Source: Henricia sp. BOLD:AAB3569
Lineage: Eukaryota; Echinodermata; Asteroidea; Spinulosida; Echinasteridae
Length of the DNA stretch: 64,000 nt
Assembly: GCA_037783545.1 (NCBI GenBank)
Contig: JBBELK010000530.1
Location: 54,687 to 118,686, forward strand
Reading direction: 5' to 3'
Of the stretch, positions 116 through 58,536 are shown in pieces. Below the pieces are notes generated by a model, which saw only the letters and a program-made list of their open reading frames with translations, was not told where the DNA came from and made no database searches. Position 1 is the stretch's first letter. Each line of letters opens with the position of its first letter. Both the position numbers and the translations under genes were made by a program.

Positions 116-180
116 TCGGACTGTCGTTAACGCACCGCAGTTTGGCTCGGCAATTTGGTCAAAGTGTGGTCCAAACGTCG

Positions 181-34602: not shown

Positions 34603-36486
34603 GTGGCTGTCTGTACACAGCTTTTTGGGGTACTCCTGAGTTGCGCGCATGCTCAGTCATTCGGACTGTCGTTAACGCACCGCAGTTTGGCTCGGCAATT
34701 TGGTCAAAGTGTGGTCCAAACGTCGGCAAATTTGGAGGTCGAAAAATGTTCCGACGAACTTCAAATTTTGCATGCCCTAAACTCTCTATATTGCGCACTT
34801 GTCATAACAAATTGACAGACTTTCGCCGGGAAATGGCAGAGAAATTTCAAAGTTTAGAAAAAACTGGGTTTAGGCTTCCTGACTGCTCTCACGCAAACCG
34901 TGGCTGTCTGTACACACCTCTTTGGGGTACTCCTGAGTTGTGCGCATGCTTAGTCATTCGGACTGTCGTTAACGCACCGCAGTTTGGCTCGGCAATTTGG
35001 TCAAAGTGTGGTCCAAACGTCGGCAAATTTGGAGGTCGAAAAATGTTCCGACGAACTTCAAATTTTGCATGCCCTAAACTCTCTATATTGCGCACTTGTC
35101 ATAAAAAATTGACAGACTTTCGCCGGGAAATGGCAGAGAAATTTCAAAGTTTAGAAAAAACTGGGTTGAGGCTTCCTGACTGCGCTCACGCAAACCGTGG
35201 CTGTCTGTACACACCTCTTTGGGGTACTCCTGAGTTGTGCGCATGATCAGTCATTCGGACTGTCGTTAACGCACCGCAGTTTGGCTCGGCAATTTGGTCA
35301 AAGTGTGGTCCAAACGTCGGCAAATTTGGAGGTCGAAAAATGTTCCGACGAACTTCAAATTTTGCATGCCCTAAAATCTCTATATTGCGCACTTGTCATA
35401 AAAAATTTGACAGACTTTCGCCGGGAAATGGCAGAGAAATTTCAAAGTTTAGAAAAAAACTGGGTTGAGGCTTCCTGACTGCTCTCACGCAAACCGTGGC
35501 TGTCTGTACACACCTCTTTGGGGTACTCCTGAGTTGTGCGCATGCTCAGTCATTCGTACTGTCGTTAACGCACCGCAGTTTGGCTCGGCAATTTGGTCAA
35601 AGTGTGGTCCAAACGTCGGCAAATTTGGAGGTCGAAAAATGTTCCGACGAACTTCAAATTTTGCATGCCCTAAACTCTCTATATTGCGCACTTGTCATAA
35701 AAAATTGACAGACTTTCGCCGGGAAATGGCAGAGAAATTTCAAAGTTTAGAAAAAACTGGGTTGAGGCTTCCTGACTGCTCTCACGCAAACCGTGGCTGT
35801 CTGTACACACCTCTTTGGGGTACTCCTGAGTTGTGCGCATGCTCAGTCATTCGGACTGTCGTTAACGCACCGCAGTTTGGCTCGGCAATTTGGTCAAAGT
35901 GTGGTCCAAACGTCGGCAAATTTGGAGGTCGAAAAATGTTCCGACGAACTTCAAATTTTGCATGCCCTAAACTCTCTATATTGCGCACTTGTCATAAAAA
36001 ATTGACAGACTTTCGCCGGGAAGTGGCAGAGAAATTTCAAAGTTTAGAAAAAACTGGGTTGAGGCTTCCTGACTGCTCTCACGCAAACCGTGGCTGTCTG
36101 TACACACCTCTTTGGGGTACTCCTGAGTTGTGCGCATGCTCAGTCATTCGGACTGTCGTTAACGCACCGCAGTTTGGCTCGGCAATTTGGTCAAAGTGTG
36201 GTCCAAACGTCGGCAAATTTGGAGGTCGAAAAATGTTCCGACGAACTTCAAATTTTGCATGCCCTAAACTCTCTATATTGCGCACTTGTCATAAATAATT
36301 GACAGACTTTCGCCGGGAAATGGCAGAGAAATTTCAAAGTTTAGAAAAAAATGGGTTGAGGCTTCCTGACTGCTCTCACGCAAACCGTGGCTGTCTGTAC
36401 ACACCTCTTTGGGGTACTCCTGAGTTGTTCGCATGCTCAGTCATTCGGACTGTCGTTAACGCACCGCAGTTTGGCTCGGCAATTTG
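34603..36486 (+). repeat. Near-consensus monomers
   Basis: Six or so units carry mostly private single-base changes, for example CACAGCTTTTTGG near 34617, GCATGATCAG near 35243, CATTCGTACTG near 35553 and GGGAAGTGGC near 36019. The last recurs near 37505, five monomers away. Confidence 0.8.
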
Positions 36487-39281
36487 GAAAGTGTGGTCCA
36501 AACGTCGGCCAATTTGAAGGTCGAAAAATGTTCCGACGAACTTCAAATTTTGCATGCCCTAAACTCTCTATATTGCGCACTTGTCATAAAAAATTGACAG
36601 ACTTTCGCCGGGAAATGGCAGAGAAATTTCAAAGTTTAGAAAAAACTGGGTTGAGGCTTCCTGACTGCTCTCACGCAAACCGTGGCTGTCTGTACACACC
36701 TCTTTGGGGTACTCCTGAGTTGTGCGCATGCTCAGTCATTCGGACTGTCGTTAACGCACCGCAGTTTGGCTCGGCAATTTGGTCAAAGTGTGGTCCAAAC
36801 GTCGGCAAATTTGGAGGTCGAAAAATGTTCCGACGAACTTCAAATTTTGCATGCCCTAAACTCTCTATATTGCGCACTTGTCATAAAAAAATTGACAGAC
36901 TTTCGCCGGGAAATGGCAGAGAAATTTCAAAGTTTAGAAAAAACTGGGTTGAGGCTTCCTGACTGCTCTCACGCAAACCGTGGCTGTCTGTACACACCTC
37001 TTTGGGGTACTCCTGAGTTGTTCGCATGCTCAGTCATTCGGACTGTCGTTAACGCACCGCAGTTTGGCTCGGCAATTTGGTCAAAGTGTGGTCCAAAAAC
37101 TTCGGCAAATTTGGAGGTCGAAAAATGTTCCGACGAACTTCAAATTTTGCATGCCCTAAACTCTCTATATTGCGCACTTGTCATAAAAAATTGACAGACT
37201 TTCGCCGGGAAATGGCAGAGAAATTTCAAAGTTTAGAAAAAACTGGGTTGAGTCTTCCTGACTGCTCTCACGCAAACCGTGGCTGTCCGTACACACCTCT
37301 CTGGGGTACTCCTGAGTTGTGCGCATGCTCAGTCATTCGGACTGTCGTTAACGCACCGCAGTTTGGCTCGGCAATTTGGTCAAAGTGTGGTCCAAACGTC
37401 GGCAAATTTGGAGGTCGAAAAATGTTCCGACGAACTTCAAATTTTGCATGCCCTAAACTCTTTATATTGCGCACTTGTCATAAAAAATTGACAGACTTTC
37501 GCCGGGAAGTGGCAGAGAAATTTCAAAGTTTAGAAAAAAACTGGGTTGAGGCTTCCTGACTGCTCTCACACAAACCGTGGCTGTCTGTACACACCTCTTT
37601 GGGGTACTCCTGAGTTGTGCGCATGCTCAGTCATTCGGACTGTCGTTAACGCACCGCAGTTTGGCTCGGCAATTTGGTCAAAGTGTGGTCCAAACGTCGG
37701 CAAATTTGGAGGTCGAAAAAATGTTCCGACGAACTTCAAATTTTGCATGCCCTAAACTCTCTATATTGCGCACTTGTCATAAAATAATTGACAGACTTTC
37801 GCCGGGAAATGGCAGAGAAATTTCAAAGTTTAGAAAAAAAAATGGGTTGAGGCTTCCTGACTGCTCTCACGCCAAACCGTGGCTGTCTGTACAACACCTC
37901 TTTGGGGTACTCCTGAGTTGTTCGCATGCTCAGTCATTCGGACTGTCGTTAACGCACCGCAGTTTGGCTCGGCAATTTGGTCAAAGTGTGGTCCAAACGT
38001 CGGCCAATTTGAAGGTCGAAAAATGTTCCGACGAACTTCAAATTTTGCATGCCCTAAACTCTCTATATTGCGCACTTGTCATAAAAAATTGACAGACTTT
38101 CGCCGGGAAATGGCAGAGAAAATTTCAAAGTTTAGAAAAAACTGGGTTGAGGCCTTCGCCGGGTCTGCTGCTCTCACGCAAACCGTGGCTGTCTGTACAC
38201 ACCTCTTGGGGTACTCCTGAGTTGTGCGCATGCTCAGTCATTCGGACTGTCGTTAACGCACCGCAGTTTGGCTCGGCAATTTGGTCAAAGTGTGGTCCAA
38301 AACGTCGGCAAATTTGGAGGTCGAAAAAATGTTCCGACGAACTTCAAATTTTGCATGCCCTAAACTCTCTATATTGCGCACTTGTCATAAAAAAATTGAC
38401 AGACTTTCGCCGGGAAATGGCAGAGAAATTTCAAAAGTTTAGAAAAAAACTGGGTTGAGGCTTCCTGACTGCTCTCACGCAAACCGTGGCTGTCTGTACA
38501 CACCTCTTTGGGGTACTCCTGAGTTGTTCGCATGCTCAGTTCATTCGGACTGTCGTTAACGCACCGCAGTTTGGCTCGGCAATTTGGTCAAAGTGTGGTC
38601 CAAACGTCGGCAAATTTGGAGGTCGAAAAATGTTCCGACGAACTTCAAATTTTGCATGCCCTAAACTCTCTATATTGCGCACTTGTCATAAAAAATTGAC
38701 AGACTTTCGCCGGGAAATGGCAGAGAAATTTCAAAGTTTAGAAAAAAACTGGGTTGAGTCTTCCTGACTGCTCTCACGCAAACCGTGGCTGTCCGTACAC
38801 ACCTCTCTGGGGTACTCCTGAGTTGTGCGCATGCTCAGTCATTTCGGACTGTTCGTTAACGCACCGCAGTTTGGCTCGGCAATTTGGTCAAAGTGTGGTC
38901 CAAACGTCGGCAAATTTGGAGGTCGAAAAATGTTCCGACGAACTTCAAATTTTGCATGCCCTAAACTCTCTATATTGCGCACTTGTCATAAAAAAATTGA
39001 CAGACTTTCGCCGGGAAATGGCAGAGAAATTTAAAAGTTTAGACAAAACTGGGTTGAGGCTTCCTGACTGCTCTCACGCAAACCGTGGCTGTCTGTACAC
39101 ACCTCTTTGGGGTACTTCTGAGTTGTGCGCATGCTCAGTCATTCGGACTGTCGTTTAACGCACCGCAGTTTGGCTCGGCAATTTGGTCAAAGTGTGGGTC
39201 CAAACGTCGGCAAATTTTGGAGGTCGAAAAAATGTTCCGACGAACTTCAAATTTTGCATGCCCTAAACTCTTTTATATTGT
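36487..39281 (+). repeat. Mildly noisy monomers before the first SINE
   Basis: Indels are more frequent than in neighbouring sequence, especially in A runs and at CCAAAAACTTCGG near 37093. Recurrent real markers are GTTCGCATGC (near 36427, 37021, 37921, 38526), CCAATTTGAAGG (near 36510, 38003) and CCGTACACACCTCTCTGG (near 37288, 38792, and again at 42548 inside the SINE domain). Near 38153-38172 the usual CTTCCTGACTGCTC is replaced by a longer segment containing TTCGCCGGG, a word from elsewhere in the monomer. Confidence 0.7.
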
Positions 39282-39565
39282 GGGCGGTCGGGTTGGCGTA
39301 CGGGTTCTTTCCTCGCCTTTCACCTCTGGGGTCCGGGTTCGAATCCGGGGCGTGTATGTGGATTGGGTTTGCAGTCCCTACTTGACAGCGTGGGTTTTTC
39401 CCCTGGGGCATTTCTCTGGGGGTTTTCCTCCCACTTCTAAAACTGTAACTCCTTCTTCGTCATCTCAAGTTGATAATATAGTATAGTTAGCTAAAAACCG
39501 TATAGTTGATGGCATAAAGGGCTTTAGTTGCCGAAGATGCCATAAAATAATACAACAACAACAAC
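39282..39565 (+). mobile_element. SINE copy 1, complete 5' end, slightly degraded
   Basis: It starts GGGCGGTCGGGTTGG and ends in a CAACAACAAC tail. The left flank ACTCTTTTATATTG and the right flank AACTCTCTATATTTGCG are degraded copies of the target-site duplication seen cleanly at 43013 and 43311. The B box is intact, though one C is missing upstream of it. It shares TTGACAGCGTGG with copies 2 and 3. The following satellite reads CACTTGACATAA rather than CACTTGTCATAA, a marker of the amplified lineage. It lies at the edge of noisy sequence, so some small differences may be base-call errors. Confidence 0.82.
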
Positions 39566-39674
39566 AACTCTCTATATTTGCGCACTTGACATAAAAAATT
39601 GACAGACTTTCGCCGGGAAATGGCAGAGAAATTTCAAAGTTTAGAAAAAACTGGGTTGAGGCTTCCTGACTGCT

Positions 39675-39726
39675 CTCACGCAAACCGTGGATGTCTGTAT
39701 CTCACGCAAACCGTGGATGTCTGTAC
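39675..39726 (+). repeat. 26-bp tandem duplication just downstream of SINE copy 1
   Basis: The word beginning CTCACGCAAACCGTGGATG occurs at 39675-39700 and again immediately at 39701-39726. It carries GTGGATGTC, the form found only downstream of SINE copies 1 to 3 among clean monomers. It is probably a replication slip. Confidence 0.85.
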
Positions 39727-40723
39727 ACACCTCTTTGGGGTACTCCTGAGTTGTGCGCATGCTCAGTCATTCGGACTGTCGTTAACGCACCGCAGTTTGG
39801 CTCGGCAATTTGGTCAAAGTGTGGTCCAAACGTCGGCAAATTTGGAGGTCGAAAAATGTTCCGACGAACTTCAAATTTTGCATGCCCTAAACTCTCTATA
39901 TTGCGCACTTGTCATAAAAAATTGACAGACTTTCGCCGGGAAATGGCAGAGAAATTTCAAAGTTTGGAAAAAAATGGGTTGAGGCTTCCTGACTGCTCTC
40001 ACGCAAACCGTGGCTGTCTGTACACACCTCTTTGGGGGTACTCCTGAGTTGTGCGCATGCTCAGTCATTCGGACTGTCGTTAACGCACCGCAGTTTGGCT
40101 CGGCAATTTGGTCAAAGTGTGGTCCAAACGTCGGCAAATTTGGAGGTCGAAAAATGTTCCGACGAACTTCAAATTTTGCATGCCCTAAACTCTCTATATT
40201 GCGCACTTGTCATAAAAAATTGACAGACTTTCGCCGGGAAATGGCAGAGAAATTTCAAAGTTTAGAAAAAACTGGGTTGAGGCTTCCTGACTGCTCTCAC
40301 GCAAACCGTGGCTGTCTGTACACACCTCTTTGGGGTACTCCTGAGTTGTGCGCATGCTCAGTCATTCGGACTGTCGTTAACGCACCGCAGTTTGGCTCGG
40401 CAATTTGGTCAAAGTGTGGTCCAAACGTCGGCAAATTTGGAGGTCGAAAAATGTTCCGACGAACTTCAAATTTTGCATGCCCTAAACTCTCTATATTGCG
40501 CACTTGTCATAAAAAATTGACAGACTTTCGCCGGGAAATGGCAGAGAAATGTCAAAGTTTAGAAAAAACTGGGTTGAGGCTTCCTGACTGCTCTCACGCA
40601 AACCGTGGCTGTCTGTACACACCTCTTTGGGGTACTCCTGAGTTGTGCGCATGCTCAGTCATTCGGACTGTCGTTAACGCACCGCAGTTTGGCTCGACAA
40701 TTTGGTCAAAGTGTGGTCCAAAC

Positions 40724-41000
40724 GTCGGGTTGGCGTACGGGTTCTTTCCTCGCCTTTCACCTCTGGGGTCCCGGGTTCGAATCCGGGGCGTGTATGTGGA
40801 TTGGGTTTGCAGTCCCTACTTGACAGCGTGGGTTTTCCCCTGGGGCATTTCTCTGGGGGTTTTCCTCCCACTTCTAAAACTGTAACTCCTTCTTCGTCAT
40901 CTCAAGTTGATAATATAGTATAGTTAGCTAAAACCGTATAGTTGATGGCATAAAGGGCTTTAGTTGCCGAAGATGCCATAAAATATACAACAACAACAAC
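40724..41000 (+). mobile_element. SINE copy 2, 5'-deleted composite form
   Basis: The satellite word AAACGTCGG runs directly into SINE GTCGGGTTGG, so the first five SINE bases and 74 bp of satellite are missing relative to the complete insertion (79 bp in total). GTCGG is shared by both sides. The A box (40731-40741) and B box (40774-40784) remain. The 3' end is the CAA tail followed by AACTCTCTATATTGCG and CACTTGACATAA. It has the ACAGCG base and is followed by a GTGGATGTC monomer. Confidence 0.88.
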
Positions 41001-41536
41001 AACTCTCTATATTGCGCACTTGACATAAAAAATTGACAGACTTTCGCCGGGAAATGGCAGAGAAATTTCAAAGTTTAGAAAAAACTGGGTTGAGGCTTCC
41101 TGACTGCTCTCACGCAAACCGTGGATGTCTGTACACACCTCTTTGGGGTACTCCTGAGTTGTGCGCATGCTCAGTCATTCGGACTGTCGTTAACGCACCG
41201 CAGTTTGGCTCGGCAATTTGGTCAAAGTGTGGTCCAAACGTCGGCAAATTTGGAGGTCGAAAAATGTTCCGACGAACTTCAAATTTTGCATGCCCTAAAC
41301 TCTCTATATTGCGCACTTGTCATAAAAAATTGACAGACTTTCGCCGGGAAATGGCAGAGAAATTTCAAAGTTTGGAAAAAAATGGGTTGAGGCTTCCTGA
41401 CTGCTCTCACGCAAACCGTGGCTGTCTGTACACACCTCTTTGGGGTACTCCTGAGTTGTGCGCATGCTCAGTCATTCGGACTGTCGTTAACGCACCGCAG
41501 TTTGGCTCGACAATTTGGTCAAAGTGTGGTCCAAAC

Positions 41537-41813
41537 GTCGGGTTGGCGTACGGGTTCTTTCTTCGCCTTTCACCTCTGGGGTCCCGGGTTCGAATCCGGG
41601 GCGTGTATGTGGATTGGGTTTGCAGTCCCTACTTGACAGCGTGGGTTTTCCCCTGGGGCATTTCTCTGGGGGTTTTCCTCCCACTTCTAAAACTGTAACT
41701 CCTTCTTCGTCATCTCAAGTTGATAATATAGTATAGTTAGCTAAAACCGTATAGTTGATGGCATAAAGGGCTTTAGTTGCCGAAGATGCCATAAAATATA
41801 CAACAACAACAAC
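41537..41813 (+). mobile_element. SINE copy 3, 5'-deleted composite form
   Basis: It has the same GTCGG junction and 3' junction as copy 2, 813 bp downstream (one 516-bp composite plus one 297-bp monomer). It differs from copy 2 by TTCTTCGCC for TTCCTCGCC. It has the ACAGCG form and is followed by GTGGATGTC. Just downstream, a 14-bp word (AAAAAACTGGGTTG) is tandemly repeated near 41890-41918. Confidence 0.88.
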
Positions 41814-43012
41814 AACTCTCTATATTGCGCACTTGACATAAAAAATTGACAGACTTTCGCCGGGAAATGGCAGAGAAATTTCAAAGTTTAGAAAAAACTG
41901 GGTTGAAAAAACTGGGTTGAGGCTTCCTGACTGCTCTCACGCAAACCGTGGATGTCTGTACACACCTCTTTGGGGTACTCCTGAGTTGTGCGCATGCTCA
42001 GTCATTCGGACTGTCGTTAACGCACCGCAGTTTGGCTCGGCAATTTGGTCAAAGTGTGGTCCAAACGTCGGCAAATTTGGAGGTCGAAAATGTTCCGACG
42101 AACTTCAAATTTTGCATGCCCTAAACTCTCTATATTGCGCACTTGTCATAAAAAATTGACAGACTTTCGCCGGGAAATGGCAGAGAAATTTCAAAGTTTG
42201 GAAAAAAATGGGTTGAGGCTTCCTGACTGCTCTCACGCAAACCGTGGCTGTCTGTACACACCTCTTTGGGGTACTCCTGAGTTGTGCGCATGCTCAGTCA
42301 TTCGGACTGTCGTTAACGCACCGCAGTTTGGCTCGGCAATTTGGTCAAAGTGTGGTCCAAACGTCGGCAAATTTGGAGGTCGAAAAATGTTCCGACGAAC
42401 TTCAAATTTTGCATGCCCTAAACTCTCTATATTGCGCACTTGTCATAAAAAATTGACAGACTTTCGCCGGGAAATGGCAGAGAAATTTCAAAGTTTAGAA
42501 AAAACTGGGTTGGTCTTCCTGACTGCTCTCACGCAAACCGTGGCTGTCCGTACACACCTCTCTGGGGTACTCCTGAGTTGTGCGCATGCTCAGTCATTCG
42601 GACTGTCGTTAACGCACCGCAGTTTGGCTCGGCAATTTGGTCAAAGTGTGGTCCAAACGTCGGCAAATTTGGAGGTCGAAAAATGTTCCGACGAACTTCA
42701 AATTTTGCATGCCCTAAACTCTCTATATTGCACACTTGTCATAAAAATTGACAGACTTTCGCCGGGAAATGGCAGAGAAATTTAAAAGTTTAGACAAAAC
42801 TGGGTTGAGGCTTCCTGACTGCTCTCACGCAAACCGTGGCTGTCTGTACACACCTCTTTGGGGTACTTCTGAGTTGTGCGCATGCTCAGTCATTCGGACT
42901 GTCATTAACGCACCGCAGTTTGGCTCGGCAATTTGGTCAAAGTGTGGTCCAAACGTCGGCAAATTTGGAGGTCGAAAAATGTTCCGACGAACTTCAAATT
43001 TTGCATGCCCTA

Positions 43013-43028
43013 AACTCTCTATATTGCG
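43013..43028 (+). repeat. Left target-site duplication of SINE copy 4
   Basis: AACTCTCTATATTGCG is an ordinary segment of the satellite monomer and is repeated exactly at 43311-43326 on the other side of the SINE. Sixteen bases is within the usual range for LINE-mediated retroposition. Confidence 0.9.
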
Positions 43029-43310
43029 GGGCGGTCGGGTTGGCGTACGGGTTCTTTCCTCGCCTTTCACCTCTGGGGTCCCGGGTTCGAATCCGGGGCG
43101 TGTATGTGGATTGGGTTTGCAGTCCCTACTTGACCGCGTGGGTTTTCCCCTGGGGCATTTCTCTGGGGGTTTTCCTCCCACTTCTAAAACTGTAACTCCT
43201 TCTTCGTCATCTCAAGTTGATAATATAGTATAGTTAGCTAAAACCGTATAGTTGATGGCATAAAGGGCCTTAGTTGCCGAAGATGCCATAAAATATACAA
43301 CAACAACAAC
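43029..43310 (+). mobile_element. SINE copy 4, complete (282 bp) with perfect 16-bp target-site duplication
   Basis: It is flanked by AACTCTCTATATTGCG on the left (43013-43028) and the right (43311-43326). The layout is a tRNA-like head with A box TGGCGTACGGG (43041-43051) and B box GGTTCGAATCC (43084-43094), a central domain of GTGGGTTTTCCCC and GGGGGTTTTCCTCCCAC, then a unique region with a stem-loop (GGCATAAA... TTAGTTGCC, 43257-43278) and a CAA/ACA tail. CTTTCAC ahead of the B box resembles the anticodon loop of tRNA-Glu(UUC), a weak clue. There is no coding capacity, so it would depend on a partner LINE. It has the ACCGCG form, and the right flank keeps the ordinary CACTTGTCATAA, making this copy closest to the original insertion. 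Confidence 0.9.
43041..43094 (+). promoter_or_regulatory. Internal RNA polymerase III promoter of the SINE (A and B boxes)
   Basis: The A box TGGCGTACGGG fits TGGCNNAGTGG at 9 of 11 positions. The B box GGTTCGAATCC is a perfect match to GGTTCGANTCC. They are separated by 32 bp, a normal tRNA-type spacing. The same boxes are present in the other seven copies, including the deleted ones, because the deletion stops just upstream of the A box. A TTTT run in the central domain might limit Pol III read-through. Confidence 0.8.
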
Positions 43311-43326
43311 AACTCTCTATATTGCG
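43311..43326 (+). repeat. Right target-site duplication of SINE copy 4
   Basis: This is an exact copy of 43013-43028, immediately after the CAA tail. The satellite then continues in phase with CACTTGTCATAA. Confidence 0.9.
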
Positions 43327-45331
43327 CACTTGTCATAAAAAATTGACAGACTTTCGCCGGGAAATGGCAGAGAAATTTCAAAGTTTAGAAAAAACTGGGT
43401 TGAGGCTTCCTGACTGCTCTCACGCAAACCGTGGCTGTCTGTACACACCTCTTTGGGGTACTCCTGAGTTGTGCGCATGCTCAGTCATTCGGACTGTCGT
43501 TAACGCACCGCAGTTTGGCTCGGCAATTTGGTCAAAGTGTGGTCCAAACGTCGGCAAATTTGGAGGTCGAAAAATGTTCCGACGAACTTCAAATTTTGCA
43601 TGCCCTAAACTCTCTATATTGCGCACTTGTCATAAAAAATTGACAGACTTTCGCCGGGAAATGGCAGAGAAATGTCAAAGTTTAGAAAAAACTGGGTTGA
43701 GGCTTCCTGACTGCTCTCACGCAAACCGTGGCTGTCTGTACACACCTCTTTGGGGTACTCCTGAGTTGTGCGCATGCTCAGTCATTCGGACTGTCGTTAA
43801 CGCACCGCAGTTTGGCTCGGCAATTTGGTCAAAGTGTGGTCCAAACGTCGGCAAATTTGGAGGTCGAAAAATGTTCCGACGAACTTCAAATTTTGCATGC
43901 CCTAAACTCTCTATATTGCGCACTTGTCATAAAAAATTGACAGACTTTCGCCGGGAAATGGCAGAGAAATTTCAAAGTTTAGAAAAAACTGGGTTGAGGC
44001 TTCCTGACTGCTCTCACGCAAACCGTGGCTGTCTGTACACACCTCTTTGGGGTACTCCTGAGTTGTGCGCATGCTCAGTCATTCGGACTGTCGTTAACGC
44101 ACCGCAGTTTGGCTCGGCAATTTGGTCAAAGTGTGGTCCAAACGTCGGCAAATATGGAGGTCGAAAAATGTTCCGACGAACTTCAAATTTTGCATGCCCT
44201 AAACTCTCTATATTGCGCACTTGTCATAAAAAATTGACAGACTTTCGCCGGGAAATGGCAGAGAAATTTCAAAGTTTGGAAAAAAATGGGTTGAGGCTTC
44301 CTGACTGCTCTCACGCAAACCGTGGCTGTCTGTACACACCTCTTTGGGGTACTCCTGAGTTGTGCGCATGCTCAGTCATTCGGACTGTCGTTAACGCACC
44401 GCAGTTTGGCTCGGCAATTTGGTCAAAGTGTGGTCCAAACGTCGGCAAATTTGGAGGTCGAAAAATGTTCCGACGAACTTACAATTTTGCATGCCCTAAA
44501 CTCTCTATATTGCGCACTTGTCATAAAAAATTGACAGACTTTCGCCGGGAAATGGCAGAGAAATTTCAAAGTTTAGAAAAAACTGGGTTGAGGCTTCCTG
44601 ACTGCTCTCACGCAAACCGTGGCTGTCTGTACACACCTCTTTGGGGTACTCCTGAGTTGTGCGCATGCTCAGTCATTCGGACTGTCGTTAACGCACCGCA
44701 GTTTGGCTCGGCAATTTGGTCAAAGTGTGGTCCAAACGTCGGCAAATTTGGAGGTCGAAAAATGTTCCGACGAACTTCAAATTTTGCATGCCCTAAACTC
44801 TCTATATTGCGCACTTGTCATAAAAAATTGACAGACTTTCGCCGGGAAATGGCAGAGAAATGTCAAAGTTTAGAAAAAACTGGGTTGAGGCTTCCTGACT
44901 GCTCTCACGCAAACCGTGGCTGTCTGTACACACCTCTTTGGGGTACTCCTGAGTTGTGCGCATGCTCAGTCATTCGGACTGTCGTTAACGCACCGCAGTT
45001 TGGCTCGGCAATTTTGTCAAAGTGTGGTCCAAACGTCGGCAAATTTGGAGGTCGAAAAATGTTCCGACGAACTTCAAATTTTGCATGCCCTAAACTCTCT
45101 ATATTGCGCACTTGTCATAACAAATTGACAGACTTTCGCCGGGAAATGGCAGAGAAATTTCAAAGTTTGGAAAAAAATGGGTTGAGGCTTCCTGACTGCT
45201 CTCACGCAAACCGTGGCTGTCTGTACACACCTCTTTGGGGTACTCCTGAGTTGTGCGCATGCTCAGTCATTCGGACTGTCGTTAACGCACCGCAGTTTGG
45301 CTCGGCAATTTGGTCAAAGTGTGGTCCAAAC

Positions 45332-45608
45332 GTCGGGTTGGCGTACGGGTTCTTTCCTCGCCTTTCACCTCTGGGGTCCCGGGTTCGAATCCGGGGCGTG
45401 TATGTGGATTGGGTTTGCAGTCCCTACTTGACCGCGTGGGTTTTCCCCTGGGGCATTTCTCTGGGGGTTTTCCTCCCACTTCTAAAACTGTAACTCCTTC
45501 TTCGTCATCTCAAGTTGATAATATAGTATAGTTAGCTAAAACCGTATAGTTGATGGCATAAAGGGCTTTAGTTGCCGAAGATGCCATAAAATATACAACA
45601 ACAACAAC
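45332..45608 (+). mobile_element. SINE copy 5, 5'-deleted composite form
   Basis: It has the GTCGG fusion junction and is 277 bp from the junction to the end of the tail. It has the ACCGCG form, followed by AACTCTCTATATTGCG, CACTTGACATAA and a GTGGCTGTC monomer. It closes a run of seven monomers after copy 4. Confidence 0.88.
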
Positions 45609-48600
45609 AACTCTCTATATTGCGCACTTGACATAAAAAATTGACAGACTTTCGCCGGGAAATGGCAGAGAAATTTCAAAGTTTAGAAAAAACTGGGTTG
45701 AGGCTTCCTGACTGCTCTCACGCAAACCGTGGCTGTCTGTACACACCTCTTTGGGGTACTCCTGAGTTGTGCGCATGCTCAGTCATTCGGACTGTCGTTA
45801 ACGCACCGCAGTTTGGCTCGGCAATTTGGTCAAAGTGTGGTCCAAACGTCGGCAAATTTGGAGGTCGAAAAATTTTCCGACGAACTTCAAATTTTGCATG
45901 CCCTAAACTCTCTATATTGCGCACTTGTCATAAAAAATTGACAGACTTTCGCCGGGAAATGGCAGAGAAATTTCAAAGTTTAGAAAAAACTGGGTTGAGG
46001 CTTCCTGACTGCTCTCACGCAAACCGTGGCTGTCTGTACACACCTCTTTGGGGTACTCCTGAGTTGTGCGCATGCTCAGTCATTCGGACTGTCGTTAACG
46101 CACCGCAGTTTGGCTCGGCAATTTGGTCAAAGTGTGGTCCAAACGTCGGCAAGTTTGGAGGTCGAAAAATGTTCCGACGAACTTCAAATTTTGCATGCCC
46201 TAAACTCTCTATATTGCGCACTTGTCATAAAAAATTGACAGACTTTCGCCGGGAAATGGCAGAGAAATTTCAAAGTTTAGAAAAAACTGGGTTGAGGCTT
46301 CCTGACTGCTCTCACGCAAACCGTGGCTGTCTGTACACACCTCTTTGGGGTACTCCTGAGTTGTGCGCATGCTCAGTCATTCGGACTGTCGTTCACGCAC
46401 CGCAGTTTGGCTCGGCAATTTGGTCAAAGTGTGGTCCAAACGTCGGCAAATTTGGAGGTCGAAAAATGTTCCGACGAACTTCAAATTTTGTATGCCCTAA
46501 ACTCTCTATATTGCGCACTTGTCATAAAAAATTGACAGACTTTCGCCGGGAAATGGCAGAGAAATTTCAAAGTTTAGAAAAAACTGGGTTGAGGCTTCCT
46601 GACTGCTCTCACGCAAACCGTGGCTGTCTGTACACACCTCTTTGGGGTACTCCTGAGTTGTGCGCATGCTCAGTCATTCGGACTGTCGTTAACGCACCGC
46701 AGTTTGGCTCGGCAATTTGGTCAAAGTGTGGTCCAAACGTCGGCAAATTTGGAGGTCGAAAAATGTTCCGACGAACTTCAAATTTTGCATGCCCTAAACT
46801 CTCTATATTGCGCACTTGTCATAAAAAATTGACAGACTTTCGCCGGGAAATGGCAGAGAAATTTCAAAGTTTAGAAAAAACTGGGTTGAGGCTTCCTGAC
46901 TGCTCTCACGCAAACCGTGGCTGTCTGTACACACCTCTTTGGGGTACTCCTGAGTTGTGCGCATGCTCAGTCATTCGGACTGTCGTTAACGCACCGCAGT
47001 TTGGCTCGGCAATTTGGTCAAAGTGTGGTCCAAACGTCGGCAAATTTGGAGGTCGAAAAATGTTCCGACGAACTTCAAATTTTGCATGCCCTAAACTCTC
47101 TATATTGCGCACTTGTCATAAAAAATTGACAGACTTTCGCCGGGAAATGGCAGAGAAATGTCAAAGTTTAGAAAAAACTGGGTTGAGGCTTCCTGACTGC
47201 TCTCACGCAAACCGTGGCTGTCTGTACACACCTCTTTGGGGTACTCCTGAGTTGTGCGCATGCTCAGTCATTCGGACTGTCGTTAACGCACCGCAGTTTG
47301 GCTCGGCAATTTGGTCAAAGTGTGGTCCAAACGTCGGCAAATTTGGAGGTCGAAAAATGTTCCGACGAACTTCAAATTTTGCATGCCCTAAACTCTCTAT
47401 ATTGCGCACTTGTCATAAAAAATTGACAGACTTTCGCCGGGAAATGGCAGAGAAATTTCAAAGTTTAGAAAAAACTGGGTTGAGGCTTCCTGACTGCTCT
47501 CACGCAAACCGTGGCTGTCTGTACACACCTCTTTGGGGTACTCCTGAGTTGTGCGCATGCTCAGTCATTCGGACTGTCGTTAACGCACCGCAGTTTGGCT
47601 CGGCAATTTGGTCAAAGTGTGGTCCAAACGTCGGCAAATATGGAGGTCGAAAAATGTTCCGACGAACTTCAAATTTTGCATGCCCTAAACTCTCTATATT
47701 GCGCACTTGTCATAAAAAATTGACAGACTTTCGCCGGGAAATGGCAGAGAAATTTCAAAGTTTGGAAAAAAATGGGTTGAGGCTTCCTGACTGCTCTCAC
47801 GCAAACCGTGGCTGTCTGTACACACCTCTTTGGGGTACTCCTGAGTTGTGCGCATGCTCAGTCATTCGGACTGTCGTTAACGCACCGCAGTTTGGCTCGG
47901 CAATTTGGTCAAAGTGTGGTCCAAACGTCGGCAAATTTGGAGGTCGAAAAATGTTCCGACGAACTTAAAATTTTGCATGCCCTAAACTCTCTATATTGCG
48001 CACTTGTCATAAAAAATTGACAGACTTTCGCCGGGAAATGGCAGAGAAATTTCAAAGTTTAGAAAAAACTGGGTTGAGGCTTCCTGACTGCTCTCACGCA
48101 AACCGTGGCTGTCTGTACACACCTCTTTGGGGTACTACTGAGTTGTGCGCATGCTCAGTCATTCGGACTGTCGATAACGCACCGCAGTTTGGCTCGGCAA
48201 TTTGGTCAAAGTGTGGTCCAAACGTCGGCAAATTTGGAGGTCGAAAAATGTTCCGACGAACTTCAAATTTTGCATGCCCTAAACTCTCTATATTGCGCAC
48301 TTGTCATAAAAAATTGACAGACTTTCGCCGGGAAATGGCAGAGAAATTTCAAAGTTTAGAAAAAACTGGGTTGAGGCTTCCTGACTGCTCTCACGCAAAC
48401 CGTGGCTGTCTGTACACACCTCTTTGGGGTACTCCTGAGTTGTGCGCATGCTCAGTCATTCGGACTGTCGTTAACGCACCGCAGTTTGGCTCGGCAATTT
48501 GGTCAAAGTGTGGTCCAAACGTCGGCAAATTTGGAGGTCGAAAAATGTTCCGACGAACTTCAAATTTTGCATGCCCTAAACTCTCTATATTGCGCACTTG

Positions 48601-49114
48601 TCATAAAAAATTGACAGACTTTCGCCGGGAAATGGCAGAGAAATGTCAAAGTTTAGAAAAAACTGGGTTGAGGCTTCCTGACTGCTCTCACGCAAACCGT
48701 GGCTGTCTGTACACACCTCTTTGGGGTACTCCTGAGTTGTGCGCATGCTCAGTCATTCGGACTGTCGTTAACGCACCGCAGTTTGGCTCGGCAATTTTGT
48801 CAAAGTGTGGTCCAAACGTCGGCAAATTTGGAGGTCGAAAAATGTTCCGACGAACTTCAAATTTTGCATGCCCTAAACTCTCTATATTGCGCACTTGTCA
48901 TAACAAATTGACAGACTTTCGCCGGGAAATGGCAGAGAAATTTCAAAGTTTGGAAAAAAATGGGTTGAGGCTTCCTGACTGCTCTCACGCAAACCGTGGC
49001 TGTCTGTACACACCTCTTTGGGGTACTCCTGAGTTGTGCGCATGCTCAGTCATTCGGACTGTCGTTAACGCACCGCAGTTTGGCTCGGCAATTTGGTCAA
49101 AGTGTGGTCCAAAC

Positions 49115-49391
49115 GTCGGGTTGGCGTACGGGTTCTTTCCTCGCCTTTCACCTCTGGGGTCCCGGGTTCGAATCCGGGGCGTGTATGTGGATTGGGTTTG
49201 CAGTCCCTACTTGACCGCGTGGGTTTTCCCCTGGGGCATTTCTCTGGGGGTTTTCCTCCCACTTCTAAAACTGTAACTCCTTCTTCGTCATCTCAAGTTG
49301 ATAATATAGTATAGTTAGCTAAAACCGTATAGTTGATGGCATAAAGGGCTTTAGTTGCCGAAGATGCCATAAAATATACAACAACAACAAC
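49115..49391 (+). mobile_element. SINE copy 6, 5'-deleted composite form
   Basis: It lies 3783 bp after copy 5 (516 plus 11 monomers) with the same junctions and the ACCGCG form. The preceding monomer has CAATTTTGTCAAAG and ATAACAAATTG, and its end reads TTTGGAAAAAAATGGG, as before copies 5 and 7. Confidence 0.88.
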
Positions 49392-51710
49392 AACTCTCTA
49401 TATTGCGCACTTGACATAAAAAATTGACAGACTTTCGCCGGGAAATGGCAGAGAAATTTCAAAGTTTAGAAAAAACTGGGTTGAGGCTTCCTGACTGCTC
49501 TCACGCAAACCGTGGCTGTCTGTACACACCTCTTTGGGGTACTCCTGAGTTGTGCGCATGCTGAGTCATTCGGACTGTCGTTAACGCACCGCAGTTTGGC
49601 TCGGCAATTTGGTCAAAGTGTGGTCCAAACGTCGGCAAATTTGGAGGTCGAAAAATGTTCCGACGAACTTCAAATTTTGCATGCCCTAAACTCTCTATAT
49701 TGCGCACTTGTCATAAAAAATTGACAGACTTTCGCCGGGAAATGGCAGAGAAATTTCAAAGTTTAGCAAAAACTGGGTTGAGGCTTCCTGACTGCTCTCA
49801 CGCAAACCGTGGCTGTCTGTACACACCTCTTTGGGGTACTCCTGAGTTGTGCGCATGCTCAGTCATTCGGACTGTCGTTAACGCACCGCAGTTTGGCTCG
49901 GCAATTTGGTCAAAGTGTGGTCCAAACGTCGGCAAATTTGGAGGTCGAAAAATGTTCCGACGAACTTCAAATTTTGCATGCCCTAAACTCTCTATATTGC
50001 GCACTTGTCATAAAAAATTGACAGACTTTCGCCGGGAAATGGCAGAGAAATTTCAAAGTTTAGAAACAACTGGGTTGAGGCTTCCTGACTGCTCTCACGC
50101 AAACCGTGGCTGTCTGTACACACCTCTTTGGGGTACTCCTGAGTTGTGCGCATGCTCAGTCATTCGGACTGTCGTTAACGCACCGCAGTTTGGCTCGGCA
50201 ATTTGGTCAAAGTGTGGTCCAAACGTCGGCAAATTTGGAGGTCGAAAAATGTTCCGACGAACTTCAAATTTTGCATGCCCTAAACTCTCTATATTGCGCA
50301 CTTGTCATAAAAAATTGACAGACTTTCGCCGGGAAATGGCAGAGAAATTTCAAAGTTTGGAAAAAAATGGGTTGAGGCTTCCTGACTGCTCTCACGCAAA
50401 CCGTGGCTGTCTGTACACACCTCTTTGGGGTACTCCTGAGTTGTGCGCATGCTCAGTCATTCGGACTGTCGTTAACGCACCGCAGTTTGGCTCGGCAATT
50501 TGGTCAAAGTGTGGTCCAAACGTCGGCAAATATGGAGGTCGAAAAATGTTCCGACGAACTTAAAATTTTGCATGCCCTAAACTCTCTATATTGCGCACTT
50601 GTCATAAAAAATTGACAGACTTTCGCCGGGAAATGGCAGAGAAATTTCAAAGTTTAGAAAAAAACTGGGTTGAGGCTTCCTGACTGCTCTCACGCAAACC
50701 GTGGCTGTCTGTACACACCTCTTTGGGGTACTACTGAGTTGTGCGCATGCTCAGTCATTCGGACTGTCGATAACGCACCGCAGTTTGGCTCGGCAATTTG
50801 GTCAAAGTGTGGTCCAAACGTCGGCAAATTTGGAGGTCGAAAAATGTTCCGACGAACTTCAAATTTTGCATGCCCTAAACTCTCTATATTGCGCACTTGT
50901 CATAAAAAATTGACAGACTTTCGCCGGGAAATGGCAGAGAAATTTCAAAGTTTAGAAAAAACTGGGTTGAGGCTTCCTGACTGCTCTCACGCAAACCGTG
51001 GCTGTCTGTACACACCTCTTTGGGGTACTCCTGAGTTGTGCGCATGCTCAGTCATTCGGACTGTCGTTAACGCACCGCAGTTTGGCTCGGCAATTTGGTC
51101 AAAGTGTGGTCCAAACGTCGGCAAATTTGGAGGTCGAAAAATGTTCCGACGAACTTCAAATTTTGCATGCCCTAAACTCTCTATATTGCGCACTTGTCAT
51201 AAAAAATTGACAGACTTTCGCCGGGAAATGGCAGAGAAATGTCAAAGTTTAGAAAAAACTGGGTTGAGGCTTCCTGACTGCTCTCACGCAAACCGTGGCT
51301 GTCTGTACACACCTCTTTGGGGTACTCCTGAGTTGTGCGCATGCTCAGTCATTCGGACTGTCGTTAACGCACCGCAGTTTGGCTCGGCAATTTTGTCAAA
51401 GTGTGGTCCAAACGTCGGCAAATTTGGAGGTCGAAAAATGTTCCGACGAACTTCAAATTTTGCATGCCCTAAACTCTCTATATTGCGCACTTGTCATAAC
51501 AAATTGACAGACTTTCGCCGGGAAATGGCAGAGAAATTTCAAAGTTTGGAAAAAAATGGGTTGAGGCTTCCTGACTGCTCTCACGCAAACCGTGGCTGTC
51601 TGTACACACCTCTTTGGGGTACTCCTGAGTTGTGCGCATGCTCAGTCATTCGGACTGTCGTTAACGCACCGCAGTTTGGCTCGGCAATTTGGTCAAAGTG
51701 TGGTCCAAAC

Positions 51711-51987
51711 GTCGGGTTGGCGTACGGGTTCTTTCCTCGCCTTTCACCTCTGGGGTCCCGGGTTCGAATCCGGGGCGTGTATGTGGATTGGGTTTGCAGT
51801 CCCTACTTGACCGCGTGGGTTTTCCCCTGGGGCATTTCTCTGGGGGTTTTCCTCCCACTTCTAAAACTGTAACTCCTTCTTCGTCATCTCAAGTTGATAA
51901 TATAGTATAGTTAGCTAAAACCGTATAGTTGATGGCATAAAGGGCTTTAGTTGCCGAAGATGCCATAAAATATACAACAACAACAAC
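51711..51987 (+). mobile_element. SINE copy 7, 5'-deleted composite form
   Basis: It lies exactly 2596 bp after copy 6 (516 plus seven monomers plus one base), with identical junctions and upstream markers. Its downstream flank, CTCTATATTGCG then CACTTGACATAA, is also the start of the 880-bp duplication that follows. Confidence 0.88.
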
Positions 51988-52010
51988 AACTCTCTATATT
52001 GCGCACTTGA

Positions 52011-53770
52011 CATAAAAAATTGACAGACTTTCGCCGGGAAATGGCAGAGAAATTTCAAAGTTTAGAAAAAACTGGGTTGAGGCTTCCTGACTGCTCTCAC
52101 GCAAACCGTGGCTGTCTGTACACACCTCTTTGGGGTACTCCTGAGTTGTGCGCATGCTCAGTCATTCGGACTGTCGTTAACGCACCGCAGTTTGGCTCGG
52201 CAATTTGGTCAAAGTGTGGTCCAAACGTCGGCAAATTTGGAGGTCGAAAAATGTTCCGACGAACTTCAAATTTTGCATGCCCTAAACTCTCTATATTGCG
52301 CACTTGTCATAAAAAATTGACAGACTTTCGCCGGGAAATGGCAGAGAAATTTCAAAGTTTAGCAAAAACTGGGTTGAGGCTTCCTGACTGCTCTCACGCA
52401 AACCGTGGCTGTCTGTACACACCTCTTTGGGGTACTCCTGAGTTGTGCGCATGCTCAGTCATTCGGACTGTCGTTAACGCACCGCAGTTTGGCTCGGCAA
52501 TTTGGTCCAAACGTCGGCAAATTTGGAGGTCGAAAAATGTTCCGACGAACTTCAAATTTTGCATGCCCTAAACTCTCTATATTGCGCACTTGTCATACAA
52601 AATTGACAGACTTTCGCCGGGAAATGGCAGAGAAATTTCAAAGTTTAGAAAAAACTGGGTTGAGGCTTCCTGACTGCTCTCACGCAAACCGTGGCTGTCT
52701 CTACACACCTCTTTGGGGTACTCCTGAGTTGTGCGCATGCTCAGTCATTCGGACTGTCGTTAACGCACCGCAGTTTGGCTCGGCAATTTGGTCAAAGTGT
52801 GGTCCAAACGTCGGCAAATTTGGAGGTCGAAAAATGTTCCGACGAACTTCAAATTTTGCATGCCCTAAACTCTCTATATTGCGCACTTGACATAAAAAAT
52901 TGACAGACTTTCGCCGGGAAATGGCAGAGAAATTTCAAAGTTTAGAAAAAACTGGGTTGAGGCTTCCTGACTGCTCTCACGCAAACCGTGGCTGTCTGTA
53001 CACACCTCTTTGGGGTACTCCTGAGTTGTGCGCATGCTCAGTCATTCGGACTGTCGTTAACGCACCGCAGTTTGGCTCGGCAATTTGGTCAAAGTGTGGT
53101 CCAAACGTCGGCAAATTTGGAGGTCGAAAAATGTTCCGACGAACTTCAAATTTTGCATGCCCTAAACTCTCTATATTGCGCACTTGTCATAAAAAATTGA
53201 CAGACTTTCGCCGGGAAATGGCAGAGAAATTTCAAAGTTTAGCAAAAACTGGGTTGAGGCTTCCTGACTGCTCTCACGCAAACCGTGGCTGTCTGTACAC
53301 ACCTCTTTGGGGTACTCCTGAGTTGTGCGCATGCTCAGTCATTCGGACTGTCGTTAACGCACCGCAGTTTGGCTCGGCAATTTGGTCCAAACGTCGGCAA
53401 ATTTGGAGGTCGAAAAATGTTCCGACGAACTTCAAATTTTGCATGCCCTAAACTCTCTATATTGCGCACTTGTCATACAAAATTGACAGACTTTCGCCGG
53501 GAAATGGCAGAGAAATTTCAAAGTTTAGAAAAAACTGGGTTGAGGCTTCCTGACTGCTCTCACGCAAACCGTGGCTGTCTCTACACACCTCTTTGGGGTA
53601 CTCCTGAGTTGTGCGCATGCTCAGTCATTCGGACTGTCGTTAACGCACCGCAGTTTGGCTCGGCAATTTGGTCAAAGTGTGGTCCAAACGTCGGCAAATT
53701 TGGAGGTCGAAAAATGTTCCGACGAACTTCAAATTTTGCATGCCCTAAACTCTCTATATTGCGCACTTGT
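52011..53770 (+). repeat. 880-bp tandem duplication after SINE copy 7, with 11-bp-deleted monomers
   Basis: Three-monomer blocks at about 52011-52890 and 52891-53770 share TTTAGCAAAAACTGG, an 11-bp deletion (TTTGGTCCAAACG instead of TTTGGTCAAAGTGTGGTCC), ATACAAAATTG and GTCTCTACACAC. The period is 880 bp (three monomers minus 11). The first block ends with CACTTGACATAA at 52885-52896, a sequence otherwise seen only after a SINE, although no SINE is there. The deletion lies between two GGTC repeats, as expected for slippage, and recurs once more at 54782. Confidence 0.88.
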
Positions 53771-53986
53771 CATAACAAATTGACAGACTTTCGCCGGGAA
53801 ATGGCAGAGAAATTTCAAAGTTTGGAAAAAAATGGGTTGAGGCTTCCTGACTGCTCTCACGCAAACCGTGGCTGTCTGTACACACCTCTTTGGGGTACTC
53901 CTGAGTTGTGCGCATGCTCAGTCATTCGGACTGTCGTTAACGCACCGCAGTTTGGCTCGGCAATTTGGTCAAAGTGTGGTCCAAAC

Positions 53987-54263
53987 GTCGGGTTGGCGTA
54001 CGGGTTCTTTCCTCGCCTTTCACCTCTGGGGTCCCGGGTTCGAATCCGGGGCGTGTATGTGGATTGGGTTTGCAGTCCCTACTTGACCGCGTGGGTTTTC
54101 CCCTGGGGCATTTCTCTGGGGGTTTTCCTCCCACTTCTAAAACTGTAACTCCTTCTTCGTCATCTCAAGTTGATAATATAGTATAGTTAGCTAAAACCGT
54201 ATAGTTGATGGCATAAAGGGCTTTAGTTGCCGAAGATGCCATAAAATATACAACAACAACAAC
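53987..54263 (+). mobile_element. SINE copy 8, 5'-deleted composite form (last in window)
   Basis: It lies 2276 bp after copy 7, equal to 516 plus six monomers minus two 11-bp deletions. The junctions, ACCGCG form and CACTTGACATAA flank match copies 5 to 7. No SINE follows in the remaining 9.7 kb. Confidence 0.88.
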
Positions 54264-57200
54264 AACTCTCTATATTGCGCACTTGACATAAAAAATTGAC
54301 AGACTTTCGCCGGGAAATGGCAGAGAAATTTCAAAGTTTAGAAAAAACTGGGTTGAGGCTTCCTGACTTCTCTCACGCAAACCGTGGCTGTCTGTACACA
54401 CCTCTTTGGGGTACTCCTGAGTTGTGCGCATGCTCAGTCATTCGGACTGTCGTTAACGCACCGCAGTTTGGCTCGGCAATTTGGTCAAAGTGTGGTCCAA
54501 ACGTCGGCAAATTTGGAGGTCGAAAAATGTTCCGACGAACTTCAAATTTTGCATGCTCTAAACTCTCTATATTGCGCACTTGTCATAAAAAATTGACAGA
54601 CTTTCGCCGGGAAATGGCAGAGAAATTTCAAAGTTTAGAAAAAACTGGGTTGAGGCTTCCTGACTGCTCTCACGCAAACCGTGGCTGTCTGTACACACCT
54701 CTTTGGGGTACTCCTGAGTTGTGCGCATGCTCAGTCATTCGGACTGTCGTTAACGCACCGCAGTTTGGCTCGGCAATTTGGTCCAAACGTCGGCAAATTT
54801 GGAGGTCGAAAAATGTTCCGACGAACTTCAAATTTTGCATGCCCTAAACTCTCTATATTGCGCACTTGTCATAAAAAATTGACAGACTTTCGCCGGGAAA
54901 TGGCAGAAAAATTTCAAAGTTTAGAAAAAACTGGGTTGAGGCTTCCTGACTGCTCTCACGCAAACCGTGGCTGTCTGTACACACCTCTTTGGGGTACTCC
55001 TGAGTTGTGCGCATGCTCAGTCATTCGGACTGTCGTTAACGCACCGCAGTTTGGCTCGGCAATTTGGTCAAAATGTGGTCTAAACGTCGGCAAATTTGGA
55101 GGTCGAAAAATGTTCCGACGAACTTCAATTTTTGCATGCCCTAAACTCTCTATATTGCGCACTTGTCATAAAAAATTGACAGACTTTCGCCGGGAAATGG
55201 CAGAGAAATTTCAAAGTTTAGAAAAAACTGGGTTGAGGCTTCCTGACTGCTCTCACGCAAACCGTGGCTGTCTGTACACACCTCTTTGGGGTACTCCTGA
55301 GTTGTGCGCATGCTCAGTCATTCGGACTGTCGTTAACGCACCGCAGTTTGGCTCGGCAATTTGGTCAAAGTGTGGTCCAAACGTCGGCAAATTTGGATGT
55401 TGAAAAATGTTCCGACGAACTTCAAATTTTGCATGCCCTAAACTCTCTATATTGCGCACTTGTCATAAAAAATTGACAGACTTTCGCCGGGAAATGGCAG
55501 AGAAATTTCAAAGTTTAGAAAAAAACTGGGTTGAGGCTTCCTGACTGCTCTCACGCAAACCGTGGCTGTCTGTACACACCTCTTTGGGGTACTCCTGAGT
55601 TGTGCGCATGCTCAGTCATTCGGACTGTCGTTAACGCACCGCAGTTTGGCTCGGCAATTTGGTCAAAGTGTGGTCCAAACGTCGGCAAATTTGGAGGTCG
55701 AAAAATGTTCCGACGAACTTCAAATTTTGCATGCCCTAAACTCTCTATATTGCGCACTTGTCATAAAAAAATTGACAGACTTTCGCCGGGAAATGGCAGA
55801 GAAATTTCAAAGTTTAGAAAAAAACTGGGTTGAGGCTACCTGACTGCTCTCACGCAAACCGTGGCTGTCTGTACACACCTCTTTGGGGTACTCCTGAGTT
55901 GTGCGCATGCTCAGTCATTCGGACTGTCGTTAACGCACCGCAGTTTGGCTCGGCAATTTGGTCAAAGTGTGGTCCAAACGTCGGCAAATTTGGAGGTCGA
56001 AAAATGTTCCGACGAACTTCAAATTTTGCATGCCCTAAACTCTCTATATTGCGCACTTGTCATAAAAAATTGACAGACTTTCGCCGGGAAATGGCAGAGA
56101 AATTTCAAAGTTTAGAAAAAACTGGGTTGAGGCTTCCTGACTGCTCTCACGCAAACCGTGGCTGTCTGTACACACCTCTTTGGGGTACTCCTGAGTTGTG
56201 CGCATGCTCAGTCATTCGGACTGTCGTTAACGCACCGCAGTTTGGCTCGGCAATTTGGTCAAAGTGTGGTCCAAACGTCGGCAAATTTGGAGGTCGAAAA
56301 ATGTTCCGACGAACTTCAAATTTTGCATGCCCTAAACTCTCTATATTGCGCACTTGTCATAAAAAATTTACAGACTTTCGCCGGGAAATGGCAGAGAAAT
56401 TTCAAAGTTTAGAAAAAACTGGGTTGAGGCTTCCTGACTGCTCTCACGCAAACCGTGGCTGTCTGTACACACCTCTTTGGGGGTACTCCTGAGTTGTGCG
56501 CATGCTCAGTCATTCGGACTGTCGTTAACGCACCGCAGTTTGGCTCGGCAATTTGGTCAAAGTGTGGTCCAAAGGTCGGCAAATTTGGAGGTCGAAAAAT
56601 GTTCCGACGAACTTCAAATTTTGCATGCCCTAAACTCTCTATATTGCGCACTTGTCATAAAAAATTGACAGACTTTCGCCGGGAAATGGCAGAGAAATTT
56701 CAAAGTTTAGAAAAAACTGGGTTGAGGCTTCCTGACTGCTCTCACGCAAACCGTGGCTGTCTGTACACACCTCTTTGGGGTACTCCTGAGTTGTGCGCAT
56801 GCTCAGTCATTCGGACTGTCGTTAACGCACCGCAGTTTGGCTCGGCAATTTGGTCAAAGTGTGGTCCAAACGTCGGCAAATTTGGAGGTCGAAAAATGTT
56901 CCGACGAACTTCAAATTTTGCATGCCCTAAACTCTCTATATTGCGCACTTGTCATAACAAATTGACAGACTTTCGCCGGGAAATGGCAGAGAAATTTCAA
57001 AGTTTAGAAAAAACTGGGTTGAGGCTTCCTGACTGCTCTCACGCAAACCGTGGCTGTCTGTACACACCTCTTTGGGGGTACTCCTGAGTTGTGCGCATGC
57101 TCAGTCATTCGGACTGTCGTTAACGCACCGCAGTTTGGCTCGGCAATTTGGTCAAAGTGTGGTCCAAACGTCGGCAAATTTGGATGTCGAAAAATGTTCC

Positions 57201-58536
57201 GACGAACTTCAAATTTTGCATGCCCTAAACTCTCTATATTGCGCACTTGTCATAAAAAATTGACAGACTTTCGCCGGGAAATGGCAGAGAAATTTCAAAG
57301 TTTAGAAAAAACTGGGTTGAGGCTTCCTGACTGCTCTCACGCAAACCGTGGCTGTCTGTACACACCTCTTTGGGGTACTCCTGAGTTGTGCGCATGCTCA
57401 GTCATTCGGACTGTCGTTAACGCACCGCAGTTTGGCTCGGCAATTTGGTCAAAGTGTGGTCCAAACGTCGGCAAATTTGGAGGTCGAAAAATGTTCCGAC
57501 GAACTTCAAATTTTGCATGCCCTAAACTCTCTATATTGCGCACTTGTCATAAACAAATTGACAGACTTTCGCCGGGAAATGGCAGAGAAATTTCAAAGTT
57601 TAGAAAAAACTGGGTTGAGGCTTCCTGACTGCTCTCACGCAAACCGTGGCTGTCTGTACACACCTCTTTGGGGTACTCCTGAGTTGTGCGCATGCTCAGT
57701 CATTCGGACTGTCGTTAACGCACCGCAGTTTGGCTCGGCAATTTGGTCAAAGTGTGGTCCAAACGTCGGCAAATTTGGAGGTCGAAAAATGTTCCGACGA
57801 ACTTCAAATTTTGCATGCCCTAAACTCTCTATATTGCGCACTTGTCATAAAAAATTGACAGACTTTCGCCGGGAAATGGCAGAGAAATTTCAAAGTTTAG
57901 AAAAAACTGGGTTGAGGCTTCCTGACTGCTCTCACGCAAACCGTGGCTGTCTGTACACACCTCTTTGGGGTACTCCTGAGTTGTGCGCATGCTCAGTCAT
58001 TCGGACTGTCGTTAACGCACCGCAGTTTGGCTCGGCAACTTGGTCAAAGTGTGGTCCAAACGTCGGCAAATTTGGAGGTCGAAAAATGTTCCGACGAACT
58101 TCAAATTTTGCATGCCCTAAACTCTCTATATTGCGCACTTGTCATAAAAAATTGACAGACTTTCGCCGGGAAATGGCAGAGAAATTTCAAAGTTTAGAAA
58201 AAACTGGGTTGAGGCTTCCTGACTGCTCTCACGCAAACCGTGGCTGTCTGTACACACCTCTTTGGGGTACTCCTGAGTTGTGCGCATGCTCAGTCATTCG
58301 GACTGTCGTTAACGCACTGCAGTTTGGCTCGGCAATTTGGTCAAAGTGTGGTCCAAACGTCGGCAAATTTGGAGGTCGAAAAATGTTCCGACGAACTTCA
58401 AATTTTGCATGCCCTAAACTCTCTATATTGCGCACTTGTCATAACAAATTGACAGACTTTCGCCGGGAAATGGCAGAGAAATTTCAAAGTTTAGAAAAAA
58501 CTGGGTTGAGGCTTCCTGACTGCTCTCACGCAAACC
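54264..58536 (+). repeat. Clean monomers beyond the last SINE
   Basis: About 14 units close to consensus. Markers include the 11-bp deletion at 54782, GGATGTTG near 55396 and the related GGATGTCG near 57183, AAATTTACAG near 56368, GGGGGTACTCC near 56478 and 57073, and AAAGGTCGG near 56572. No SINE or other element is present. Confidence 0.85.

Follow-up and report, generated by a model that had tools for sequence, protein, structure and literature searches.

How did eight copies of one mobile element come to lie at the same base of a satellite monomer? This question is raised by a 64,000-bp stretch of genomic DNA from the sea star Henricia sp. BOLD:AAB3569 (the window; G000:C530:54687-118686), part of an assembly of 740.7 Mb in 2104 contigs. 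Positions without a contig name are window positions. The window carries eight copies of a short interspersed nuclear element (SINE) in a 297-bp satellite. Private bases, a tree branch and variants of neighbouring monomers support the descent of all eight from one retroposition, as far as sequence can indicate. A preliminary description had proposed this single retroposition followed by array amplification; our results agree with that conclusion, but the argument given for it is weaker.

Eight SINE copies at one monomer position

Apart from the eight SINEs, the whole window (1..64000) is a head-to-tail array of the 297-bp satellite, with 210 monomer matches, every one on the + strand. The same satellite fills 54.7 kb of the contig to the left (185 matches), and on the right the contig ends with the window. 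Within positions 1-2922, ten monomers have zero substitutions relative to the consensus.

The eight SINE matches are also all on the + strand and are 97.9-100% identical to the fourth copy. As described before, their 3' junctions are the same: the ACA tail passes into AACTCTCTATATTGCGCACTTG in all eight, with one extra T in copy 1. We named this insertion point site A. Copy 4 is complete (43029..43310; match span 43025-43310) and is flanked on the + strand by AACTCTCTATATTGCG at 43013..43028 and again at 43311..43326. The leading AAC of the right duplication may be tail, so the duplication is 13-16 bp long. When the flanks were joined with one duplication copy, they gave a monomer with 0 differences to the consensus over 240 bp. 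Of the perfect 16-bp duplication reported earlier, the identical flanks stand, and the length becomes a range.

Two of the eight copies, not copy 4 alone, keep the 5' end of the SINE. The second is copy 1 (39282..39565), whose left duplication is blurred. It borders a patch with 9 homopolymer insertions per kb (36501-39290), and sequencing error probably accounts for some of its divergence. In the other six copies the first 5 bases of the SINE are missing together with about 74 bp of satellite, and monomer position 230 is joined to the SINE at GTCGG. These are copies 2 (40724..41000), 3 (41537..41813), 5 (45332..45608), 6 (49115..49391), 7 (51711..51987) and 8 (53987..54263). Their common derived 5' junction lies at a 5-bp microhomology, the GTCGG being common to satellite and SINE (40724-40728 in copy 2, 41537-41541 in copy 3). 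If it arose by simple deletion, 79 bp were lost; exchange with another monomer would leave the same picture.

Two private changes were present in all eight copies: CTGTAAC, where the other sampled copies have CTGCAAC, and a 2-bp loss giving GTTAGCT versus GTTAAAGCT. An exact 54-base search of the genome found 41 carriers on 13 contigs: C313 (11), C530 (8), C623 (5), C1585 (3), two each on C331, C897, C969, C1252 and C1438, and one each on C228, C792, C1138 and C1574. Allowing up to 3 mismatches gave 46 carriers, the extra five being on C661 (two), C897, C969 and C1574 (one each); the pattern is blind to copies whose marker was lost or changed further. Flanks were read for 44 of the 46, leaving out C623:197226 and C897:163322, both on satellite contigs. 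Among those read, 43 were at site A in the satellite (13 contigs), 16 with the full 5' end and 27 with the deletion junction, and one was dispersed (C228). In the tree, a branch of modest support (83/78) had 36 site-A rows and the C228 copy together on one side. The eight window copies are all on that side, consistent with the earlier expectation that they form one clade with private bases.

The neighbouring monomers carry the same signal. Copies 1 and 4 have six variants in common in their two left-hand monomers (G81T, T116C and T129C, then C55A, A66C and C139T; 38678..39279 on the + strand, and again 42435-43026), and no other monomer listed has them, the lists for three monomers stopping at 14 variants. 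Copies 5-7 follow a common block with T53G and G206T, then A15C, A63G and C71A up to the SINE (44810..45336, + strand), which is repeated at 48593-49119 and 51189-51715. In the right flank, every window copy except copy 4 has T9A (seven in all), and copies 1-3 have C111A in addition. Among the copies read across the genome, T9A was present in 20/20 deletion-type copies of one set and 7/7 of a second, and in 1/16 copies with a full 5' end in the first set, namely copy 1. The common neighbour variants show segmental amplification.

Copy 1 appears to be a recombinant. Its left side is like that of copy 4, and its right part and right flank are like those of copies 2 and 3; the best reading of this is that the exchange took place within the SINE. 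In addition, all four combinations of ACAGCG/ACCGCG with the two 5' junction types were present among the eight copies, so recombination or recurrent change is needed.

Insertion hotspots in the satellite

The eight copies are not the only insertions at site A. A second body type (G85A plus a tail change) had the same duplication on C1377 (two copies) and C1687 (one copy). The intact site-A 5' junction occurred 18 times on 12 contigs, 3 of the 18 with this other body type, and the deletion junction occurred on 8 contigs in the copies read. A gap pattern for site A gave 75 matches with four 5'-junction lengths, 26 (5 matches), 27 (3), 28 (49) and 29 (18); classes were assigned by match length, and the letters were read for 8 of the 75. 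By hand count, each contig had one length throughout. A hand check of the length-27 match on C1208 showed the same spacing from the G85A marker as in the C1377 copies.

The G85A bodies at site A may be due either to independent insertion or to conversion by another SINE. These copies (L051-L053) were considered as ancestors of the private-base copies and dropped as first choice, because the private-base copies are without G85A and the marker had 105 matches genome-wide. By hand count, 36 of the 100 listed were the sole match on their contig, with flanks unread for nearly all. It was clustered on C895, C1356, C434 and C659, in some cases at satellite-like spacing (895, 1192, 1489 bp). These four contigs are absent from the site-A list and from the site-B matches listed, and perhaps hold further insertion sites.

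At a second point, site B, seven copies on C530 had a third body type, 95.1-95.8% identical to copy 4, with a duplication of 12-13 bp. Another 8 copies, on C1053, C1506 and C1855, had the common body at site B and a duplication of 16-17 bp. The site-B gap pattern gave 143 matches. Among the 100 matches listed there were at least 15 junction strings on 31 contigs, with one string per contig on 29 of the 31 and two on C500 and C569; by a cautious count, the largest set of strings at least 2 edits apart pairwise was 7. Two copies, on C1506 and C1855, combined a site-B left flank with a site-A right flank and are likely SINE-SINE hybrids. One copy was seen at a third point, site C, on C1425. When the empty site was restored for one copy per class, the differences over 240 bp were 0 (A), 3 (B2), 0 (B1) and 1 (C). 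The flanks of pattern matches were read for site B on C530 and C1053 and for site A in the named copies; the rest were assigned to the satellite by their matched satellite bases. All insertions read had a single orientation to the monomer, and the patterns are blind to the opposite one.

Identical insertion points are common in this satellite, although some of the classes may have arisen when an old junction drifted. Given such hotspots, one common base is no proof of a single insertion; the private bases and flanks are. The second body type and four lengths at site A, together with the site-B strings, show that the earlier premise, the improbability of independent insertions at one base, does not apply to this satellite. 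The simplest cause would be that identical targets abound and that only a few sites in them are favoured for nicking.

A proposed history and its alternatives

The history that we regard as very probable begins with one retroposition at site A. One SINE RNA would have been reverse-transcribed into site A of a single monomer, presumably by target-primed insertion with the machinery of a partner long interspersed nuclear element (LINE), leaving a 13-16 bp duplication. The SINE-bearing monomer would then have multiplied and moved along with its neighbours, unequal exchange being the probable mover, and its descendants would today occupy 13 satellite contigs. The shorter fusion would have come later, from a joining at GTCGG, and would have been amplified further, and copies would have recombined inside the SINE. 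Other SINEs of the same family would have independently entered the same few satellite bases, led there by target abundance and nick preference, and several of these would have been amplified too.

If the eight copies were instead several independent hotspot insertions, their common base would be explained by the hotspots, which are real. All eight, however, carry the private changes, which otherwise occur in only one copy read as dispersed. Six of them have one odd 5' junction together with T9A, and copies 1 and 4 have common flank variants two monomers deep. We consider independent insertion of the eight very improbable. The junction classes at the two sites are a separate matter. The 15 site-B strings and four site-A lengths might go back to a single old insertion at each site, followed by drift or conversion of its 5' junction. 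Many site-B strings are one base apart, the set at least 2 edits apart reaching 7 among the matches listed, and the site-A lengths also differ by one base each. SINE-SINE hybrids exist, and a tree uniting B1 and B2 in a single clade was not rejected (p-AU 0.826), some rows being identical between the two. Against this, junction class tracks body type where both are visible: the string with no extra base goes with the distinct body of about 95% identity on C530, TCG with the common body on C1053, and TAG with the G85A marker in 9/9 cases on C1319. Moreover, there are dispersed copies with the common body, and at least one copy carrying G85A (C156:481717) was read as dispersed too. Drift or conversion of single old insertions is an unlikely source of the classes as a whole.

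An assembly artefact deserves almost no credence. It would fit the error-rich patches and the end of the window at the contig end, but the intact 5' junction was found on 12 contigs, three of its 18 occurrences having the other body type, and the deletion junction on 8. For the C228 copy, descent from an array copy, that is, escape of the SINE from the satellite, has a chance somewhat short of even. Over 284 bp it matches intact array copies at 100%; the DNA around it is not satellite, and the duplication there, ACACTCGGCCTC, is its own. No other carrier of the private changes, among the 44 of 46 with flanks read, was dispersed. It could equally be a parent or sibling of the site-A insertion, and its sequence gives no direction. 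A broader picture, in which the satellite is a recurrent SINE nursery with repeated nicks by the partner LINE at the same few monomer bases, array multiplication, SINE-SINE recombination and array copies still sending offspring (C228), is rather doubtful.

Several observations weigh against the proposed single retroposition and amplification. The assembly has error-rich patches: besides 36501-39290, positions 2923-10400 have 24 non-homopolymer indels per kb, with dense monomer indels as in uncorrected long reads. The left flanks of the SINE loci on C501 and C64 agree over all 55 bp; uncollapsed haplotypes may therefore be present, and the number of contigs is not the number of loci. The junctions were read in the assembled contigs. 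Support for the site-A clade is modest, there being few differences between copies. Left flanks vary among the other full-length site-A copies, many of which are without the left variants of copies 1 and 4; either the flanks were reshuffled or the variants are younger.

The SINE and related systems

The SINE, measured from where the left duplication ends, is 282 bp long; it has an (ACA)n tail and contains two TTTT runs. Its B box, GGTTCGAATCC, begins at 43084 in copy 4 and is intact in 8/8 window copies and in 67/69 copies tabulated. The A box has a degenerate match only, judged by eye. The earlier suggestion of many RNA polymerase III promoters in the array may thus be kept for the B box, and for that part only. 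ARAGORN with bacterial settings found 0 transfer RNA (tRNA) genes. Rfam gave nothing at gathering score, and tRNA was absent even at E up to 5. Since the head was not recognised by tRNA models, we call the element a SINE by its other features and claim no tRNA origin. Searches with two SINE words against viral contigs and with one word against prokaryote contigs gave 0 matches.

The preliminary description had suggested a search for the SINE outside the satellite, which yielded 15 matches on 10 contigs with their own, differing target-site duplications. A repeat of at least 11 bp across the element was present in 14 of the 15; the other was a fragment with 8 bp. These dispersed copies occupy unrelated targets, which rules out a site-specific retroelement confined to one target, and a preference was seen only inside the satellite.

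Bovine satellites contain inserted elements that were subsequently amplified, and the Mboumar element has an ant as its host. Mboumar is a mariner-like element inside satellite DNA (PMC9659126) and resembles our case as a transposon within a satellite; it is a DNA transposon, not a SINE, and the passage describing it does not say that capture recurred at identical bases. According to a table in the same review, Xenopus Satellite 1 and the Hydromantes Hy/Pol III repeats have SINE-like, tRNA-related sequence in tandem repeats, and there the repeat unit itself includes the SINE-like part. In the limpet Patella caerulea, PcH-sat, derived from a Nin-SINE, also has SINE sequence within a satellite; according to PMC11121367, its monomer includes a 118-bp SINE fragment that lacks boxes A and B, whereas Henricia has complete SINEs with duplications in an older monomer. 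In squamate SINE-derived satellites, SINE sequence was likewise multiplied in tandem, but the tandem unit itself is part of the SINE, by the account in a passage of PMC10702118. Rye pSc200/pSc250 tandem repeats were co-amplified with adjacent transposable elements; there, according to PMC4857426, the elements flank the arrays and solo long terminal repeats are enriched.

Our literature search found no paper on this SINE-satellite pair, which does not prove its absence from print. Transposons in satellites and SINE-built satellites are known; new, as far as the papers found show, is the repeated capture of complete SINEs at the same monomer bases, with several amplified. One genome may thereby give many replicates of retroposition into identical monomers. 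The junction classes, if they are separate insertions, would directly measure the target-site choice and second-strand cleavage of the LINE machinery, and diagnostic bases would tag array copying, exchange and spread. Should array copies still act as sources, satellites would offer a mobile element a way to multiply that bypasses retroposition.

Some further arrangements of the SINE were seen. At two non-satellite loci, L025 (C266:972855-973653) and L030 (C156:481418-482002), SINEs are neighbours in tandem, one closely behind the other's tail. At L023 (C501) and L028 (C64), the SINE adjoins reversed SINE sequence, and the tails differ by one AAC; this pair may be allelic contigs or a duplication. 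Inserts in the satellite at L040 and L041 (C313:38640-39301 and 40414-41075) and L050 (C1425:67359-69663) begin with 32-36 SINE-head bases, followed by unrelated sequence ending in AATAAAACATTTTAGAAAAA. They are about 660 bp long on C313 and about 2.3 kb on C1425, the latter including a nested element with inverted ends.

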